Assembly (NCBI GenBank): GCA_902762785.1
Contig: CACWPL010000033.1
Coordinates: 1 to 46,473 of the forward strand
Direction of reading: 5' to 3'
Source: an uncultured Ruminococcus sp.
GTDB taxonomy: Bacteria > Bacillota > Clostridia > Oscillospirales > Ruminococcaceae
Length of the DNA: 46,473 nucleotides
In this document: piece by piece, positions 32,905 to 46,473 of the stretch
Layout: every line of letters starts with the position of its first letter
How positions within the stretch are numbered: the stretch's first letter is position 1
Notes under the pieces: model-generated
Seen by the model: the letters and a program-made list of their open reading frames with translations, nothing else
Told to the model about the DNA's origin: nothing
The model's database searches: none
Made by a program: the position numbers and the translations under genes

Positions 32905-33417
32905 ATGAGACTATTCATCGCGGTCCTGCTGTCCGATCAATGCAAGGCAGCACTGACGGGGGCGCAGGATGCACTGTACAAAAGCGGCTACCGCGGCCAT
33001 TATTCCGATGAGGCCGCGCTCCATGTGACCGTGGCGTTCATCGGCGAATACGATGATCCCGATCATGTCCTCGAGGTCATGGAGACGGTGCCTTTCGCGC
33101 CCTTCCAGATGGAGCTCGCGGGCTATATCGGCAATTTCGGTGACCTGCTCTGGGCAGGCGTCCGCGCGGACGATGCCCTCGGGCAGTATGTCAAGCGGCT
33201 CCGTCATGCGTTGGCAGACGCGCAGATCCCGTTCGACCGCAAGGCGTATCATCCGCATATCACGCTGCTGCGTCACGCCCATGGACAGCGCCCGTTCGCG
33301 GAGATCCACGTCCCCGAGGCGGTGATGACCGTCCGGAGCATCGTGCTCATGCGCTCCGATCGGCGGCAGCGCGGCGCCGCTTATACAGAGCTCGGCAGGA
33401 TGGAGGCGATCGGATGA
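32905..33417 (+). CDS. thpR: RNA 2',3'-cyclic phosphodiesterase ThpR (2H phosphoesterase, LigT-like)
   Basis: Hydrolyses 2',3'-cyclic phosphates on RNA ends and may ligate tRNA halves. The 170-residue product has both HxT motifs of the 2H superfamily: His40-Val-Thr42 and His118-Ile-Thr120, with RLFIAVLLSD at the start. AAGGGGGATGAG precedes the ATG. Its stop overlaps the start of the secreted GH16 gene (ATGA), an odd coupling of an RNA enzyme with an exported glycosidase. A small hairpin TGGGCA/TGCCCA lies at about 32869-32884. Confidence 0.9.
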   Translation: MRLFIAVLLSDQCKAALTGAQDALYKSGYRGHYSDEAALHVTVAFIGEYDDPDHVLEVMETVPFAPFQMELAGYIGNFGDLLWAGVRADDALGQYVKRLRHALADAQIPFDRKAYHPHITLLRHAHGQRPFAEIHVPEAVMTVRSIVLMRSDRRQRGAAYTELGRMEAIG

Positions 33418-35330
33418 AGCGGATCCTGGCAGCCGCGGCGGCCGCAGCGTTGCTCCTGCTGTCCTGTCCCGCACCGGCGGCAGCGGCAGAGGAGGACATC
33501 TTTTTTGAGGACTTTTCGGGGACACGCCTCGACCCCGCCAAATGGCGAATCGCCGAGAAGAACTGGGGCGGCACCGTCACGGAGGACGGCCGCACGGTCG
33601 ACTATAACGGCGGCGTCATCGCGGAGAACGTTGCGGTGCGCGGCGGCGAGCTCGTCCTGACCGGCCTCGGCAACGACTATGCGGGCGACCTCCGCGGCAT
33701 CGCGCGAGACGGCTCCCGCCGTGAGGACGGCAAGCGCTGCGGCGGTGCGATCGCGACCGATGCGTACTTCGCCTCCGGCAGCTACGAGATCCGCGCGAGG
33801 ATCGCGCCGGAGCTGGGGTGCTGCTCGGCGATGTGGACGTTCGAGTATGAGGAGGACTATTCCGGCGACACGCTCACCGTCACGAACCACGAGATCGACA
33901 TCGAGTTCCCGGGACGTGACGCGGACGACGCCTTCAGCCTGTCCCACGCGCTCTGCACGACCTGGGTGACGGAGGAGGACTATCTGACCCGCTCCGTCCC
34001 CTGCGGCGATCAGGCGGACGGCGCCTACCACACCTACCGCTTCGACTGGCACACCGGCAGCGATACGGAGACGCCCCGCGTGGAGTATTACTTCGACGAC
34101 GTGCTGACCTACACGTCCTATGACCACATCCCCACGAACGAGAGCCGCCTCTGGCTCGGCCTCTGGTTCCCGCGGTATTGGGCGGGGACGCCGGACTTCG
34201 AGACGACTGCGTTCTATATCGACTATGTGAAGATCACACCGTTCCACGAGGAGGGAGACACCATGCAGCACGAATCTTACCCCGACCACGGCTGGGCAAC
34301 ACCGGCCGCCGATCTGCCGAAGGGCTGGCTCCTGTGGCACAGCTACAGCACCTATGGCGCATACGACAGCCGCCTCTTCCTGCGTGCGCCGGACGGCATA
34401 GTCACCGAGATCACCGGTGACTTCTACAGCGCCATGAACGCCAGCTTCGGCACATCGCCGCAGCAGTTCACCTTCATGGCGAAAGACCCGGCCACGAACG
34501 AGTGGGACATCTTCCTCTATGACCACGGCACGATCACGAATCTGACGAAGGACAGCGATTTCCAGAACGAGGACCCCAAGCTCTCCCCGGACGGGACGCA
34601 GATCGTGTTCAAGCGCCGTATCTGGGACGGGAGCATCGGTGACTTCGTGTATGATCTGGCGCTCCTGGACATCGAGACGCGCTCTGTCACGATGCTGACG
34701 GATGATGCCGCTGAGGACGCTATGCCGTCCTTTTCGGCGGACGGCAGCGCGGTCTTTTTTGCACGCTATTCCGGCGAGATCGGGTCGATCTGCCGCCTGG
34801 ATCTGGCCACGCGCACGGTCGAGACGGTCTACCATGAGGAGGGCGTCAATGCCTATTACCCGATCGTGCAGGGCGACCGGCTCTACTTCACAAAATGGTA
34901 CAGCGCCGAGAACAGGTGCGACCAGCTCATGTGCTGGGACGGTGAGACACTGACGGCGCTGCCCTTCGATTCGGAGCGCTACGACTGCTCCGATGCCTGC
35001 CCGATCGACGCCGAGATGATGGTCTACAGCAGCACCGAGAATGGCGCGTACAGCCTCTATCTCTATGACGGACAGACGTCCCTGCCGCTCGATGTAAACA
35101 GTGAGCAGAACGACCTCGGCGCTGCCTTCTTCCCGGCGCCGCGCGGCGACGTCGATGCAGACGGCGACTGCGACACGGCCGACGTCGTCCTGCTGCAAAA
35201 ATGGCTACACCACGCCACACGCACGGCGCTGCCAGATGCAGAGGCGGCGGATCTCGATGGGGACGGCCGCGTGGACGTCCTCGACCTGGGGCTTTTGAAG
35301 CGGACGCTGCTCGCGTCCCATGACCGATAA
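33414..35330 (+). CDS. secreted GH16 glycoside hydrolase with beta-propeller domain and type I dockerin
   Basis: Extracellular beta-glucan or related hydrolase that should dock onto a scaffoldin cohesin. In 638 residues: signal peptide (about 1-25), GH16 catalytic domain (about 27-280) with EIDIE motif (nucleophile Glu160, acid/base Glu164), a TolB/PD40-like propeller of about 270 residues (blades such as NEDPKLSPDGTQIVFKRR and AMPSFSADGSAVFFARY), and a C-terminal dockerin with two Ca2+-binding repeats (DADGDCDTADVVLLQKWL and DLDGDGRVDVLDLGLLKRTL). It is tightly coupled to thpR. A propeller between GH16 and dockerin is unusual; it may bind carbohydrate or protein. Confidence 0.92.
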   Translation: MKRILAAAAAAALLLLSCPAPAAAAEEDIFFEDFSGTRLDPAKWRIAEKNWGGTVTEDGRTVDYNGGVIAENVAVRGGELVLTGLGNDYAGDLRGIARDGSRREDGKRCGGAIATDAYFASGSYEIRARIAPELGCCSAMWTFEYEEDYSGDTLTVTNHEIDIEFPGRDADDAFSLSHALCTTWVTEEDYLTRSVPCGDQADGAYHTYRFDWHTGSDTETPRVEYYFDDVLTYTSYDHIPTNESRLWLGLWFPRYWAGTPDFETTAFYIDYVKITPFHEEGDTMQHESYPDHGWATPAADLPKGWLLWHSYSTYGAYDSRLFLRAPDGIVTEITGDFYSAMNASFGTSPQQFTFMAKDPATNEWDIFLYDHGTITNLTKDSDFQNEDPKLSPDGTQIVFKRRIWDGSIGDFVYDLALLDIETRSVTMLTDDAAEDAMPSFSADGSAVFFARYSGEIGSICRLDLATRTVETVYHEEGVNAYYPIVQGDRLYFTKWYSAENRCDQLMCWDGETLTALPFDSERYDCSDACPIDAEMMVYSSTENGAYSLYLYDGQTSLPLDVNSEQNDLGAAFFPAPRGDVDADGDCDTADVVLLQKWLHHATRTALPDAEAADLDGDGRVDVLDLGLLKRTLLASHDR

Positions 35331-43389: not shown

Positions 43390-44109
43390 ATGGGATCGGA
43401 TGACAAAACACCGTCTGCAAAACAGCTCGACTGGGTACAGATCCGCACGCTGCTGTTCCTCGGACTGCTCGGCGGATGCATGACGTTCGTCGGTGACTGG
43501 CTGCTGGGGTACGGCGTGACCGACGCGCGCCTGACAGGCCTCGAGCGCAAGCTGTCACAGTATCTCGTGCTATCCGACCGCACATTGTTTTGGTCGGCAT
43601 TTCTGGGGCTGATCGGCATCTCCCTGGAAGGGGTCTGCTATCTCGGCATCTGCCGGCTCCTCCGGAGCGAACGGTATGCCCATGTCTTCCGGGTCGGTGC
43701 GTTCGGCTATATGCTGTTCGCCGCGTGTGGTGTGCATGTGCCGTGCCTGGCGACCGTGTTCTTTTATAAACACATGATGCTCGCATCCCCGGAGACGGCG
43801 TATGATCTGACGGTCACGTTCGGGCTGTATTTCCTGCTCCCGGCGATGATCCTGTTCCTGGCCGCCTTCCTGGTGATGAGCGCCGCACAGATCGGAGCGT
43901 TCGCCAAGGGACTGACGCCGTACCCGAGATGGTGCTGGATCTTTTCGATGCCGGTCGCCATGGCGGCGACCATGCTATTGAAGCTCACGGGCGATCATGC
44001 TGTCACGAACGGACTGACGGCCGCTTGGATCAGCATCGGCAATATCTGGATGTTCGGCGGTCTGCTGATGATGATGCGTCGTGCAAAGGAAAGGAGTCAT
44101 ATCTCATGA
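43390..44109 (+). CDS. multi-pass membrane protein, function unknown
   Basis: 239 residues with about seven transmembrane helices (near 20-37, 64-85, 98-120, 138-165, 180-198 and 210-232 among them). Cytoplasmic start of 15 polar residues. I cannot name the family with confidence. AGGAGGG precedes the ATG at 43390; the earlier ATG at 43339 lies in the leader. First gene of an operon under the dyad promoter, overlapping the esterase gene by 4 nt. Confidence 0.78.
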   Translation: MGSDDKTPSAKQLDWVQIRTLLFLGLLGGCMTFVGDWLLGYGVTDARLTGLERKLSQYLVLSDRTLFWSAFLGLIGISLEGVCYLGICRLLRSERYAHVFRVGAFGYMLFAACGVHVPCLATVFFYKHMMLASPETAYDLTVTFGLYFLLPAMILFLAAFLVMSAAQIGAFAKGLTPYPRWCWIFSMPVAMAATMLLKLTGDHAVTNGLTAAWISIGNIWMFGGLLMMMRRAKERSHIS

Positions 44110-45092
44110 AACAGGATCCATTCGTAACGGTCGTGAAGGCCCCCGATGCCTCGCAGGAGCCACGTTATCGGCTGGTGGAGCTGGCGGTCAAGGCGGCAGG
44201 TCTGCGCAAGAGCCTGATCGGCACGAAGGAGGAGGTCCTTGCGAAGGCAGCAAGGGTGAACGCGAAAAATCGGCATTTTTTCATGCCGACGGACAGCAGG
44301 GCGCATTACACCGACCATCTGATCGGCGGGCAGTACCATTGTGTCGAGATCGACACGGACATCCGCCGCAAGGACAAAGCCGTGCTGTTCGTGTTCGGCG
44401 GCGGCATGATCCTCGGGTCGGATGCGGGCGACATCGGCTTGTCCCGCCGTATCGCAAAGGAGACCGGCGCGGACGTGTGGTTCCCCTATTATCCGCTGTG
44501 TCACGAGCATGATATACTGGAGAACGTGCAGATGCTCTTTGGGTGCTATCGAGAGATGCTTCGTTTCTATGCGCCGGAGGACATCGTATTTCTGGGATTC
44601 TCGTCCGGCGGTGCGCTGATCCTTGATCTGATCACCTATCTCAACGAGCTGCGTGACCGCGGTGAGACGGTCCCGATGCCCGGTATGCTGATCCCGATCT
44701 CTCCTGGCAGCGTCCCGGTCAATGATCGGGAGCGCGACCGTCTGCGAATGCTCGACAGCCGTGATATGATGATCCCTGCCTCCTTTATGGATCTTGCCGA
44801 GGAGATCATGCGCCACGGCCATGACATCCCGCAAAAATACACCGCAACGGCACACGGCGACTTCCGCGATGCACCGATGACGCATTTCTATTACGGGTCG
44901 GCAGAAACGCTCTATGGCTTTGCTCCGAGCTATGCCGCGAGCTTCCGAAGGGCGAAGGCACGCTGCGTCTTCCACATCGGAAAGGGGATGCACCATTGCT
45001 ATGCGATGCAGTATTTCATCCCCGGATGCAAGCCGGCGTTCGATGAGGTCATGGGGCTGATCCTGCACTATTTTGAAAGGGGCCGTTCCTGA
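44106..45092 (+). CDS. alpha/beta hydrolase, HSL/esterase type
   Basis: 328 residues. Nucleophile Ser166 in GFSSG (GxSxG). The oxyanion motif is FGGG (97-100) in place of the common HGGG. Acid and base are likely in the C-terminal part (APMTHFYYGSAETLYG and KGMHHCYAMQYF). A carboxylesterase/lipase-like (hormone-sensitive lipase) family fits. AAAGGAG precedes the ATG. Overlaps the preceding membrane-protein gene by 4 nt. Substrate unknown. Confidence 0.87.
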   Translation: MKQDPFVTVVKAPDASQEPRYRLVELAVKAAGLRKSLIGTKEEVLAKAARVNAKNRHFFMPTDSRAHYTDHLIGGQYHCVEIDTDIRRKDKAVLFVFGGGMILGSDAGDIGLSRRIAKETGADVWFPYYPLCHEHDILENVQMLFGCYREMLRFYAPEDIVFLGFSSGGALILDLITYLNELRDRGETVPMPGMLIPISPGSVPVNDRERDRLRMLDSRDMMIPASFMDLAEEIMRHGHDIPQKYTATAHGDFRDAPMTHFYYGSAETLYGFAPSYAASFRRAKARCVFHIGKGMHHCYAMQYFIPGCKPAFDEVMGLILHYFERGRS

Positions 45093-45131
45093 TGACGGAG
45101 CGGCGTCGATACTGGAAATGGAGGTAGGCAA

Positions 45132-45632
45132 ATGCTTTTGACGGTATTCCTCACGGTCGTGTTTTGCGCGGCGATCACGCTGATGCTCTTGTCGGCAGTC
45201 ACGTTCATCCAGGACATCCGATTCTTTTCCTCTGCACCGAAGGAGGCGCAGGCCGTCCTGCGTCCAAGAGAGCAGGAGCTGTTCTGCGGTGCCAGGGCCA
45301 TCGGATGGACACTGATGGCCTTTAGTCTGCTGATGATCCTGGGCGTCGGCGTGGTCGCGATCTGGGACGGAGCAAGGAGCGGCTATACGTTCTGGCAGTA
45401 TTTCTTGCGGTTCGTTTTCATCTTCACTGTATATAAGCTCTATGACATGACCTTCTTTGACTGGTACCTGCTTTGCCGTGCCCGATTTTTCCAGTACTAT
45501 TTCCCGGAGACCGCATCGGTCTACAACGGCAGGCGATACGGCTATAACATCAAGAGCCAGCTCTTGAAGCTGCTCGTGATCTTCCCGGCGGCATCCGCAC
45601 TGGCAGCGTGGATCTGCACGCTGGCGCAGTGA
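45132..45632 (+). CDS. four-helix membrane protein, function unknown
   Basis: 166 residues; helices at about 5-25, 56-77, 86-103 and 142-162, with a Tyr/Phe-rich loop in between (FFDWYLLCRARFFQYYFPE). GGAGG lies 8 nt before the ATG. Last gene before a strong terminator, so it ends the operon that begins at 43390. I recognise no family. Confidence 0.75.
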   Translation: MLLTVFLTVVFCAAITLMLLSAVTFIQDIRFFSSAPKEAQAVLRPREQELFCGARAIGWTLMAFSLLMILGVGVVAIWDGARSGYTFWQYFLRFVFIFTVYKLYDMTFFDWYLLCRARFFQYYFPETASVYNGRRYGYNIKSQLLKLLVIFPAASALAAWICTLAQ

Positions 45633-45671
45633 TCGAGCGGGATGTGTCAAAGCGGCCTCTAAAAGCACATG

Positions 45672-45708
45672 CTTCTCTGCGCTGACGATCGGCGCAGAGA
45701 AGTTTTTT
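45672..45708 (+). terminator. rho-independent terminator
   Basis: Perfect 11-bp stem CTTCTCTGCGC / GCGCAGAGAAG, 9-nt loop, then TTTTTT. It insulates the peptide locus from the upstream operon. Confidence 0.93.
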
Positions 45709-45837
45709 CGCGCATGATCGTATGACTCAAGGGGGTGTCGATCACTTTGTGACATAATGATGCAAAAGAGAAACGCGATATGACGTATCTGCGCTATATT
45801 GACGGTCGATGCTGTGACAAAAGATCGTCTTTCGTAT

Positions 45838-45866
45838 TTGCAATCGTTGGTGAGATATGGTATGAT
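45838..45866 (+). promoter_or_regulatory. sigma-A promoter of the small-peptide locus
   Basis: TTGCAA (45838-45843), 17-nt spacer ending in ATATGG, TATGAT (45861-45866) with TGG extension. Upstream (45736-45754) TGTCGATCACTTTGTGACA contains a TCAC-TTT-GTGA dyad, and a related GTCGATGCTGTGACA lies at 45805-45819; both could be regulator sites. Confidence 0.75.
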
Positions 45867-45899
45867 ACTGATAGAGGGAAAAAACGAGGAGGTGATAGG

Positions 45900-45980
45900 A
45901 TGAGCAAGCCCACGATCGCTGTCGTTCTCGCTGTTGTCGATGTCGCTTTGACGATCATCAAGATCGTCACGAAGAAGTGA
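45900..45980 (+). CDS. 26-residue amphipathic, cationic peptide
   Basis: Very strong RBS CGAGGAGGTGATAG directly before the ATG, under its own promoter. The peptide runs MSKPTIAVVLAVVDV then ALTIIKIVTKK: a hydrophobic helix with a narrow polar stripe (Asp14, Thr18, Lys21, Lys25) and a Lys-Lys end; net charge about +3. No signal peptide or cleavage motif. It physically resembles phenol-soluble modulins, leaderless bacteriocins or membrane-acting type I toxins; I see no antitoxin RNA, immunity gene or exporter nearby. Reality as a gene rests on promoter, RBS and helix pattern. Confidence 0.65.
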   Translation: MSKPTIAVVLAVVDVALTIIKIVTKK

Positions 45981-46014
45981 CGTCCGCGCTCTGCATGCTC
46001 GAGGAGGTGATAGC

Positions 46015-46107
46015 ATGAAGGTCGATGTGATCGCTGAGATCGTCACCACAGTCTCTGACTGTGTCGTGAAGATCCTGAAGGCAGTGGATGAGGGGAGGGA
46101 CGACTGA
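46015..46107 (+). CDS. 30-residue amphipathic, anionic peptide
   Basis: Begins 34 nt after the first peptide stop, with the near-identical RBS CGAGGAGGTGATAG. The peptide runs MKVDVIAEIVTTVSDC then VVKILKAVDEGRDD. Polar residues recur on one face (Asp4, Glu8, Thr11, Asp15, Lys19, Lys22, Glu26) and Ile/Val/Leu on the other, a clean amphipathic helix. Net charge about -3, opposite to peptide 1. IIKIVTK in the first and VVKILKA in the second suggest common origin. One Cys (16) could allow dimerisation. Confidence 0.65.
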   Translation: MKVDVIAEIVTTVSDCVVKILKAVDEGRDD

Positions 46108-46128
46108 GCCGCCCCCCGTGCAAGTGAT

Positions 46129-46145
46129 GAGGAGGGGATAGCATG
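46129..46145 (+). repeat. third copy of the RBS/start cassette
   Basis: GAGGAGGGGATAGCATG matches the start cassettes of peptides 1 and 2 (ending at 45902 and 46017). From its ATG the frame has no stop before the tRNA genes, so no sensible short peptide follows; probably a remnant of a third unit. Confidence 0.55.
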
Positions 46146-46193
46146 CGCGACCCCACCATCGGCTCGTGTGCCGCATCTTTTTTCAAAAAAGAC

Positions 46194-46222
46194 TTGACAA
46201 ACCGGGCCGATCGTGTTATAAT
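46194..46222 (+). promoter_or_regulatory. consensus sigma-A promoter of the tRNA operon
   Basis: Perfect TTGACA (46194-46199), 17-nt spacer, perfect TATAAT (46217-46222), TGT extension. It lies just after TCTTTTTT-C-AAAAAAGA (46176-46192), whose T run may end the peptide transcript. Confidence 0.95.
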
Positions 46223-46247
46223 AAATAAGCTATGGTATAGCAACGAT

Positions 46248-46321
46248 GGCGGTATAGCTCAGTTGGCTAGAGCACTTGGTTCATACCCAGGGGGTCGCTG
46301 GTTCAAATCCTGCTGCCGCTA
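46248..46321 (+). tRNA. tRNA-Met (CAT), elongator type
   Basis: Cloverleaf folds: acceptor GGCGGTA/TGCCGCT (first pair G-T), D arm GCTC...GAGC, anticodon stem CTTGG/CCAGG with loop TTCATAC (anticodon CAT), T loop TTCAAAT. A G-T pair at 1-72 argues against the initiator (C-A). The T stem GCTGG/CCTGC has one T-T mismatch in the middle. CCA is not encoded. A lysidine-modified tRNA-Ile is less likely from the acceptor and anticodon-loop sequence. Confidence 0.93.
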
Positions 46322-46327
46322 TCCATC

Positions 46328-46402
46328 GGCCCGTTGGTCAAGAGGTCAAGACACCGCCCTTTCACGGCGGAATCATGGGTTCAATTCCCGTACGGGTCAC
46401 CA
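46328..46402 (+). tRNA. tRNA-Glu (TTC)
   Basis: Acceptor GGCCCGT/ACGGGTC, anticodon stem CCGCC/GGCGG with loop CTTTCAC (anticodon TTC), T loop TTCAATT, and encoded CCA at 46400-46402. Six bases after tRNA-Met. Confidence 0.96.
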
Positions 46403-46411
46403 TTCAATGTT

Positions 46412-46453
46412 CTCGGAAACAGCGTAATTACGTTGTTTCCGAGTTTTTCTTTT
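46412..46453 (+). terminator. strong terminator of the tRNA operon
   Basis: 15-bp stem CTCGGAAACAGCGTA / TACGTTGTTTCCGAG (one G-T pair) with a 2-nt loop, then TTTTTCTTTT. Confidence 0.95.
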
Positions 46454-46473
46454 ATACCGAAAATAGGCTTTGT

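Follow-up and report, generated by a model that had tools for sequence, protein, structure and literature searches.

Two open reading frames of 26 and 30 codons, set one behind the other under a single promoter near the end of a contig, raise the question of whether sequences this short form a genuine peptide locus and, if they do, what their products are for. The window analysed here, 46,473 nucleotides in length, corresponds to contig C33 in full, one of the 62 contigs that make up a 2.82-Mb genome, and the elements of the array, from the terminator-like stem to the last start cassette, all lie on its plus strand. The original prediction of two ORFs with near-identical start cassettes, placed under one sigma-A promoter with a terminator upstream, was confirmed by reading and by consensus scans: a 166-aa membrane-protein gene (45132-45632), which is without a family match, is followed downstream by an intrinsic terminator-like stem of 15 pairs with a T tail (45671..45703), and a sigma-A-type promoter, TTGCAA-17-TATGAT with a TG before the -10 (an extended -10), occupies positions 45838..45866. 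The first ORF (P1, 45900..45980) encodes the peptide MSKPTIAVVLAVVDVALTIIKIVTKK and the second (P2, 46015..46107) the peptide MKVDVIAEIVTTVSDCVVKILKAVDEGRDD. Each is preceded by a perfect Shine-Dalgarno (SD) sequence, AGGAGGTGAT, at 45887..45896 and 46002..46011 respectively, located 3 nt before the ATG, and both start cassettes conform to CGAGGAGGTGATAG(G/C)ATG.

Among all ATG, GTG and TTG codons on both strands of the window, those of P1 and P2 alone have a 10/10 match to this SD sequence 1-8 nt upstream. Tandem exact cassettes within ~130 bp of each other were found in one of 396 family genomes sampled, namely the genome of the window itself, where they occur three times. The tandem exact SD pattern was present in three stretches of a species collection (which may omit this genome), with no mini-peptide array among them, and in 2 + 9 stretches of viral contigs, with no related array. 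Short ORFs with an SD of at least 8/10 numbered five in 74,372 strand-bases of comparison sequence, consisting of contig C30 of the same genome and 6 kb of genome G023, and two of these five are the sister pair of P1 and P2 described below.

A third SD and start cassette, AGGAGGGGAT-3-ATG, lies at 46130..46145 with its ATG at 46143, and its frame remains without a stop through both tRNA-Met (46247-46325) and tRNA-Glu (46328-46402); it is therefore not a credible gene. Because only its first bases align with the start of the third gene of the sister locus, which encodes a DUF4230 protein, this cassette looks like a remnant and is probably the former start of a third gene, and the arrangement suggests that a deletion removed from the window locus a gene such as that DUF4230 gene. 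The remnant region (46143-46247) ends at the tRNA promoter, TTGACA-17-TATAAT. When positions 44000-46473 were compared with Rfam, the two tRNAs alone passed the gathering score, and in five related loci a single tRNA and nothing else passed.

The sister locus was located through a DNA match of the array to positions 1149-1468 of contig C30 (81% identity over 324 query bases, E 3e-78). Both of its small ORFs are intact, with peptides 81% (P1') and 83% (P2') identical to those of the window and with no indels or stops. The lack of stops means little, because 96-100% of random placements of the substitutions are also stop-free. P1 and P1' are separated by 13 differences, with 8 of the 13 changed codons synonymous (dN 0.09, dS 0.57), and their identity of 21/26 lies above the 17.5 +/- 1.3 obtained under random placement (p=0.011); from this comparison P1 looks coding. 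P2 and P2' are separated by seven differences in five codons, none synonymous (dN 0.076, dS 0.10, p=0.83), and the selection signal of P2 is uninformative. For both ORFs taken jointly, identity against random placement gave p=0.057. These figures bear on a reading in which the function of the mini-ORFs lies in trapping ribosomes or in RNA structure, and not in their peptides. Tandem repeats of a perfect complement to the anti-SD would suit such a role, as would P2 changes that are all replacements, but the conservation of P1 protein identity beyond chance and the recurrence of similar peptides in two other genomes (G025 and G016) make it the least probable of the alternatives considered here.

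The third gene of the C30 locus encodes a protein with a hydrophobic N-terminus that matches DUF4230 (39.7 bits against a cut-off of 27). Some 65 bp beyond this gene, and ~0.7 kb from the peptide pair, the end of contig C30 carries a CRISPR array with seven or more repeats. The repeat of this array (L006 1-440, G000:C30) is approximately GTCGCAACTCACCCCTACGCGGGGACGAAWAC. DUF4230 was considered as a general partner of such pairs and rejected: 20 of 21 matches are in 15 other genomes, and a similar peptide pair was seen solely in C30, in a check that covered at most 900 bp upstream of each match, a shorter stretch where a contig ended and none at L060, and whose SD filter missed P1'.

A third array of the same genome lies on C58, a 4.2-kb contig, and comprises ORFs of 19, 29, 29 and 30 aa followed by an 80-aa Ala/Gly-rich protein. 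Between the second and third of these ORFs 14 of 87 positions have changed, and the changes fall in 12 codons, each of them a replacement, while the last three cassettes are preceded by identical 41-bp spacers (0/41 against 14/87 for the ORFs, p=0.005), which selection or conversion may have kept constant. That the C58 cassettes contain no synonymous change at all is by itself short of significance (p=0.12). A protein beside the C58 array has an ending that resembles that of a window protein (33414-35330) with, by eye, a dockerin-like C-terminus. Across the three loci of this genome there are eight ORFs of 19-30 codons, each with an SD of 9-10/10 located 3-4 nt from its ATG.

All three arrays are preceded by one common operator, in which an imperfect inverted repeat is followed at a distance of exactly 60 bp by the half-site GTGACAAA. 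In the window the distal site, TGTCGATCACTTTGTGACA, occupies 45736..45754, a position equivalent to that in C30 and C58, and the proximal half-site occupies 45814..45821; upstream of each array the distal site has the form TGTC-N8-TGTGAC. The 57 bp between the aligned sites have pairwise identities of just 18, 20 and 24 of 57. With a spacing of 55-65 bp allowed, the compound operator was found three times in this genome and in none of 395 other family genomes sampled, seven of them of the same genus, and no other observation speaks as strongly for a putative regulon made up of the three loci. The distal operator alone, with one mismatch, gave 33 matches against 13 in a reversed control; most of the 29 examined fall within long open frames, and among these 29 a second GTGAC at +78 is present in the three arrays only. 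The pattern GTGACAAA-N(20-50)-TGGTATNATA has three matches in this genome, all before arrays, and none in the reversed control, and the promoter form with N(25-50) and TATGATA was found in one of 37 other genomes of the genus, before an unrelated gene (this match, in G023, precedes a 206-aa protein and is without mini-ORFs). Because of the sister pair, the common operator and the related arrays, the reading of C33 as a dedicated peptide locus, part of the original prediction, is supported by the sequence comparisons; the word "two" in that prediction undersells the arrangement, as related loci have up to eight small genes.

The same promoter and operator data bear on type I toxin-antitoxin systems, in which the peptides would be toxins repressed by antisense RNA. 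P1 is small and hydrophobic and the loci are duplicated, as such a reading would have it, but consensus scans detected no antisense promoter-like site in the window array, the C58 mini-ORFs or the C30 pair (in C58 the sole plus-strand promoter match sits in the operator region), and one antisense RNA per toxin is hard to reconcile with perfect SDs that are open, an operator in common and several ORFs per promoter. We regard this explanation as very unlikely.

What, then, can be said of the peptides themselves? The charges of +3 and about -3 originally given for P1 and P2 were reproduced by computation (+3 and -3), and P1, which has a lysine tail and one Asp, is hydrophobic, with a mean Eisenberg value of +0.37. 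The amphipathic character claimed for both fared less evenly. Against shuffled sequences, the hydrophobic moment in an 18-residue window gave p=0.03 for P2, for which a "regular" helix is a weak description, and p=0.07 for P1, so that amphipathicity is marginal; the likeness noted between IIKIVTK of P1 and VVKILKA of P2 is too short for a statistical test. Neither peptide has a match above cut-off in Pfam or NCBIfam. P1 matched none of the leaderless bacteriocin models of these libraries, and P2 gave matches at chance level only, to IcmR (E 0.02) and a carrier protein (E 0.01), both below cut-off. One 29-aa peptide of C58 and a lengthened version of its 19-aa peptide, which with P1 and P2 make up the set of small peptides scanned against the family libraries, likewise gave nothing above cut-off. 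P1 and P2 were also without matches in PHROGs and PADLOC, PDB sequences yielded chance-level matches with no phenol-soluble modulin (PSM) among them, and no PSM model was matched in the family libraries scanned, a library search as distinct from a direct comparison with PSM sequences.

These properties do not bear out the suggestion that the pair represents PSMs, a two-peptide bacteriocin or membrane toxins. Multi-peptide leaderless bacteriocins and PSM operons have a gene layout of tandem leaderless small ORFs, and leaderless peptides that are exported to disrupt the membranes of competitors would account for runs of several leaderless ORFs of 11-43 aa and for the variable peptides and constant spacers of C58. 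Known leaderless bacteriocins, however, are cationic, whereas four of the eight peptides of the three home loci are acidic (-2 to -6); the neighbouring genes that were read at the three loci, some of them also scanned and those of C58 confined to 4.2 kb, include none recognised as an export, transporter or immunity gene, no family match rises above cut-off, and the relatives of the arrays adjoin defence genes. Secretion as a bacteriocin or modulin is thus an unlikely explanation, and the related loci appear to point to phage defence rather than to bacteriocins.

Relatives of P1 and P2 outside the genome were sought in several collections. The P2 profile found no relative in 37 other genomes of the genus, 16 of which gave chance-level matches (E 0.06-1); two of these matches, when opened (L040, L042), contained no similar short ORF. 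P1 was sought in the genus as DNA, together with the whole array; no relative of the array DNA was found in the same 37 genomes, and nearly all of the outside matches listed correspond to the tRNA-promoter part. P2 has no relative among 41 pattern stretches of the species collection or 27 of the viral contigs, P1 none among 10 pattern stretches of the viral contigs, and searches for P2 in plasmids and P1 in phages returned no match. The outcome that was to refute the original prediction, a lack of conservation in relatives, is half borne out: the peptides are conserved between paralogs, but neither the P2 profile nor the array DNA found a relative in the other 37 genomes of the genus. As no relative of P1 or P2 was found outside this genome, their link to arrays in defence islands runs only through the common operator and the 80-aa protein of C58.

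This 80-aa protein has clear relatives in three other species: in G025 (53% identity), in G016 (43%) and in G366, which belongs to another genus (E 8e-16). The count omits the weak matches in G018 (E 0.003), G383 and G111 (E 7e-4), whose frames of 184-205 aa led to their exclusion; of these loci, that of G018 (L115) was checked for SDs. No relative of the 80-aa protein or of the 100-aa family was found in viral contigs (95 and 51 stretches), and there was no match for the 80-aa protein in plasmids and phages or for the 100-aa protein in plasmids. All three relatives lie amid mini-ORFs, most of which have an AGGTGAT-type start: ORFs of 24, 11, 18, 22, 79 and 24 aa in G025; of 26, 43 (with a weak SD), 11, 20, 80, 27 and 15 aa in G016; and of 14, 80, 52 and 35 aa in G366, where the 35-aa ORF starts with GTG. 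G025 and G016 have a common order, with other ORFs interspersed, of MKNYV.., RPLIDL (11 aa), ML.., the 80-aa protein and VLD(I/V)(L/I)LD. Between these two genomes the 80-aa protein has a dN of 0.15 and a dS of 1.11, values that are indicative of purifying selection.

The 11-aa ORF common to G025 and G016 (7/11 identical, dN 0.17, dS 1.02) is one argument for peptides that are regulatory or adaptor molecules, short linear motifs that would bind one partner, such as the 80-aa or DUF4230 protein or a component of replication or of CRISPR, and would not be membrane-active. A possible hydrophobic-Asp-hydrophobic motif also recurs, by eye, in many of the peptides (RPLIDL, VLDIL, IDVLDEL). P1, however, is simply hydrophobic with one Asp, and there is no known partner, so that we would give an adaptor role little credence, about as much as a secreted bacteriocin.

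The neighbourhoods of the three relatives suggest a different setting. In G025 the neighbours are CRISPR repeats, Cas13d (PADLOC E 1e-291; NCBIfam NF038189, 864 bits against 150), viperin (NF038283, 233 bits against 180) together with a pair of proteins that match WYL models of PADLOC (E 5e-9 and 7e-8) and have no Pfam match above cut-off. This locus (L120, G025:C155) packs a type VI-D system into 8.4 kb, with Cas13d, viperin, a 97-aa protein, the two WYL-type proteins and the mini-ORF array. The neighbour in G366 is viperin (240 bits), and that in G016 is a type II cytosine methyltransferase (E 3e-120); adjacent ORFs of 499 and 489 aa beside the methyltransferase (L121 31-2993, G016:C81) have no PADLOC match. 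One protein family of 97-118 aa (A7) is present in each of the three loci, with no PADLOC match for any of the three members, none above cut-off in Pfam, and none in NCBIfam for the two scanned. In the G366 locus (L119, G366:C224) the operator TACTGYTTTTCTGAAAA occurs at five places in 4.5 kb, all on one strand and none on the other, where it precedes the A7 gene, the unit of mini-ORFs and 80-aa gene, a 119-aa gene and viperin, with one further place.

Linkage to defence genes thus holds for all three other species with clear relatives of the 80-aa protein; C30 has only its CRISPR array nearby, and no defence gene was found close to the window array. The part of the 46 kb scanned with PADLOC (E 0.01) consisted of P1, P2 and six further ORFs in the vicinity of the array, and from C58 the 80-aa protein and a single peptide were included; none of these gave a match. 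Among 15 ORFs of C30, four have PADLOC matches (PDC-S07, mad2/methyltransferase, a PD-T4-6 kinase-type and a weak ATPase-type), each at a distance of over 10 kb from the pair, and these may reflect shared common domains only; the DUF4230 protein and its nearest neighbours, also scanned, have none. The home arrays are outside any clear defence island.

Our preferred reading, which we hold tentatively and at somewhat less than even weight, is that P1 and P2 are co-expressed, leaderless, membrane-active peptides, possibly defence effectors, and that they belong to a mini-peptide regulon with three member loci. One regulator would bind both operator sites cooperatively, the GTGAC boxes being 65 bp apart or about six helical turns, and so switch the operon; independent and efficient ribosome starts on each ORF would then yield several short leaderless peptides made together in abundance. 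At the membrane these peptides would act as short helices, each by itself or in combination, and two of the arrays would supply a partner protein, the 80-aa Ala/Gly-rich protein in C58 and the DUF4230 protein in C30. For this last step, at the membrane or in defence, we infer that the most likely function is that of an infection-induced effector that damages the membrane or inhibits phage growth inside the infected cell, a role favoured because the mini-ORF clusters of the 80-aa relatives adjoin Cas13d, viperin and methyltransferase genes. Drawn as it is from the relatives, the effector role would have less support than abundant co-production and membrane action.

A broader proposal, which we consider possible and rather more doubtful, is that these loci represent a type of anti-phage module, in which operons located in Cas13d/viperin islands, and under the same control as viperin, combine many mini-ORFs of 11-43 codons with strong SD cassettes, the 80-aa Ala/Gly-rich protein and a partner of 100 aa, and release a fast-changing cocktail of leaderless peptides upon infection; the window pair would be a reduced version that has moved elsewhere and has a two-site switch of its own. 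The arrays may be of a new kind, as family matches are missing and the portions of the literature available to us contain no description of such mini-ORF arrays. ORFs of fewer than 50 codons routinely go unannotated; that a set of them is genuine is shown here by the operator common to the three loci, by the sister loci and by the relatives that one array has in other species. Should the peptides prove to be effectors, RNA-targeting CRISPR and viperin loci would include a component not known to have been described, and one that supplies natural mixtures of membrane-active peptides.

Set beside known systems, what the arrays share with leaderless bacteriocin and PSM operons is being short, leaderless and tandem, and no further defining feature was seen. 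Leaderless bacteriocins of the aureocin A70 and garvicin KS type are likewise encoded by tandem leaderless ORFs of ~30 codons, each with its own SD, but the arrays described here are without a cationic bias, a recognised transporter or immunity gene, or a family match, and their relatives lie in a defence neighbourhood. Staphylococcal PSMs are similar in length range and in being short leaderless peptides of multi-peptide operons, yet they belong to another lineage, with no sequence match in the libraries searched and no transporter seen here. The Ldr and Ibs type I toxins are also short, hydrophobic and encoded by tandemly duplicated loci, whereas the present arrays have a common operator, open SDs and no antisense promoter-like site that could be found. 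Lastly, although six window ORFs, P1, P2, one C58 peptide and the 80-aa protein are without a PADLOC match, type VI-D CRISPR (Cas13d) and prokaryotic viperin loci are the known systems that house relatives of the 80-aa protein together with mini-ORFs, both of them in G025 and viperin in G366.
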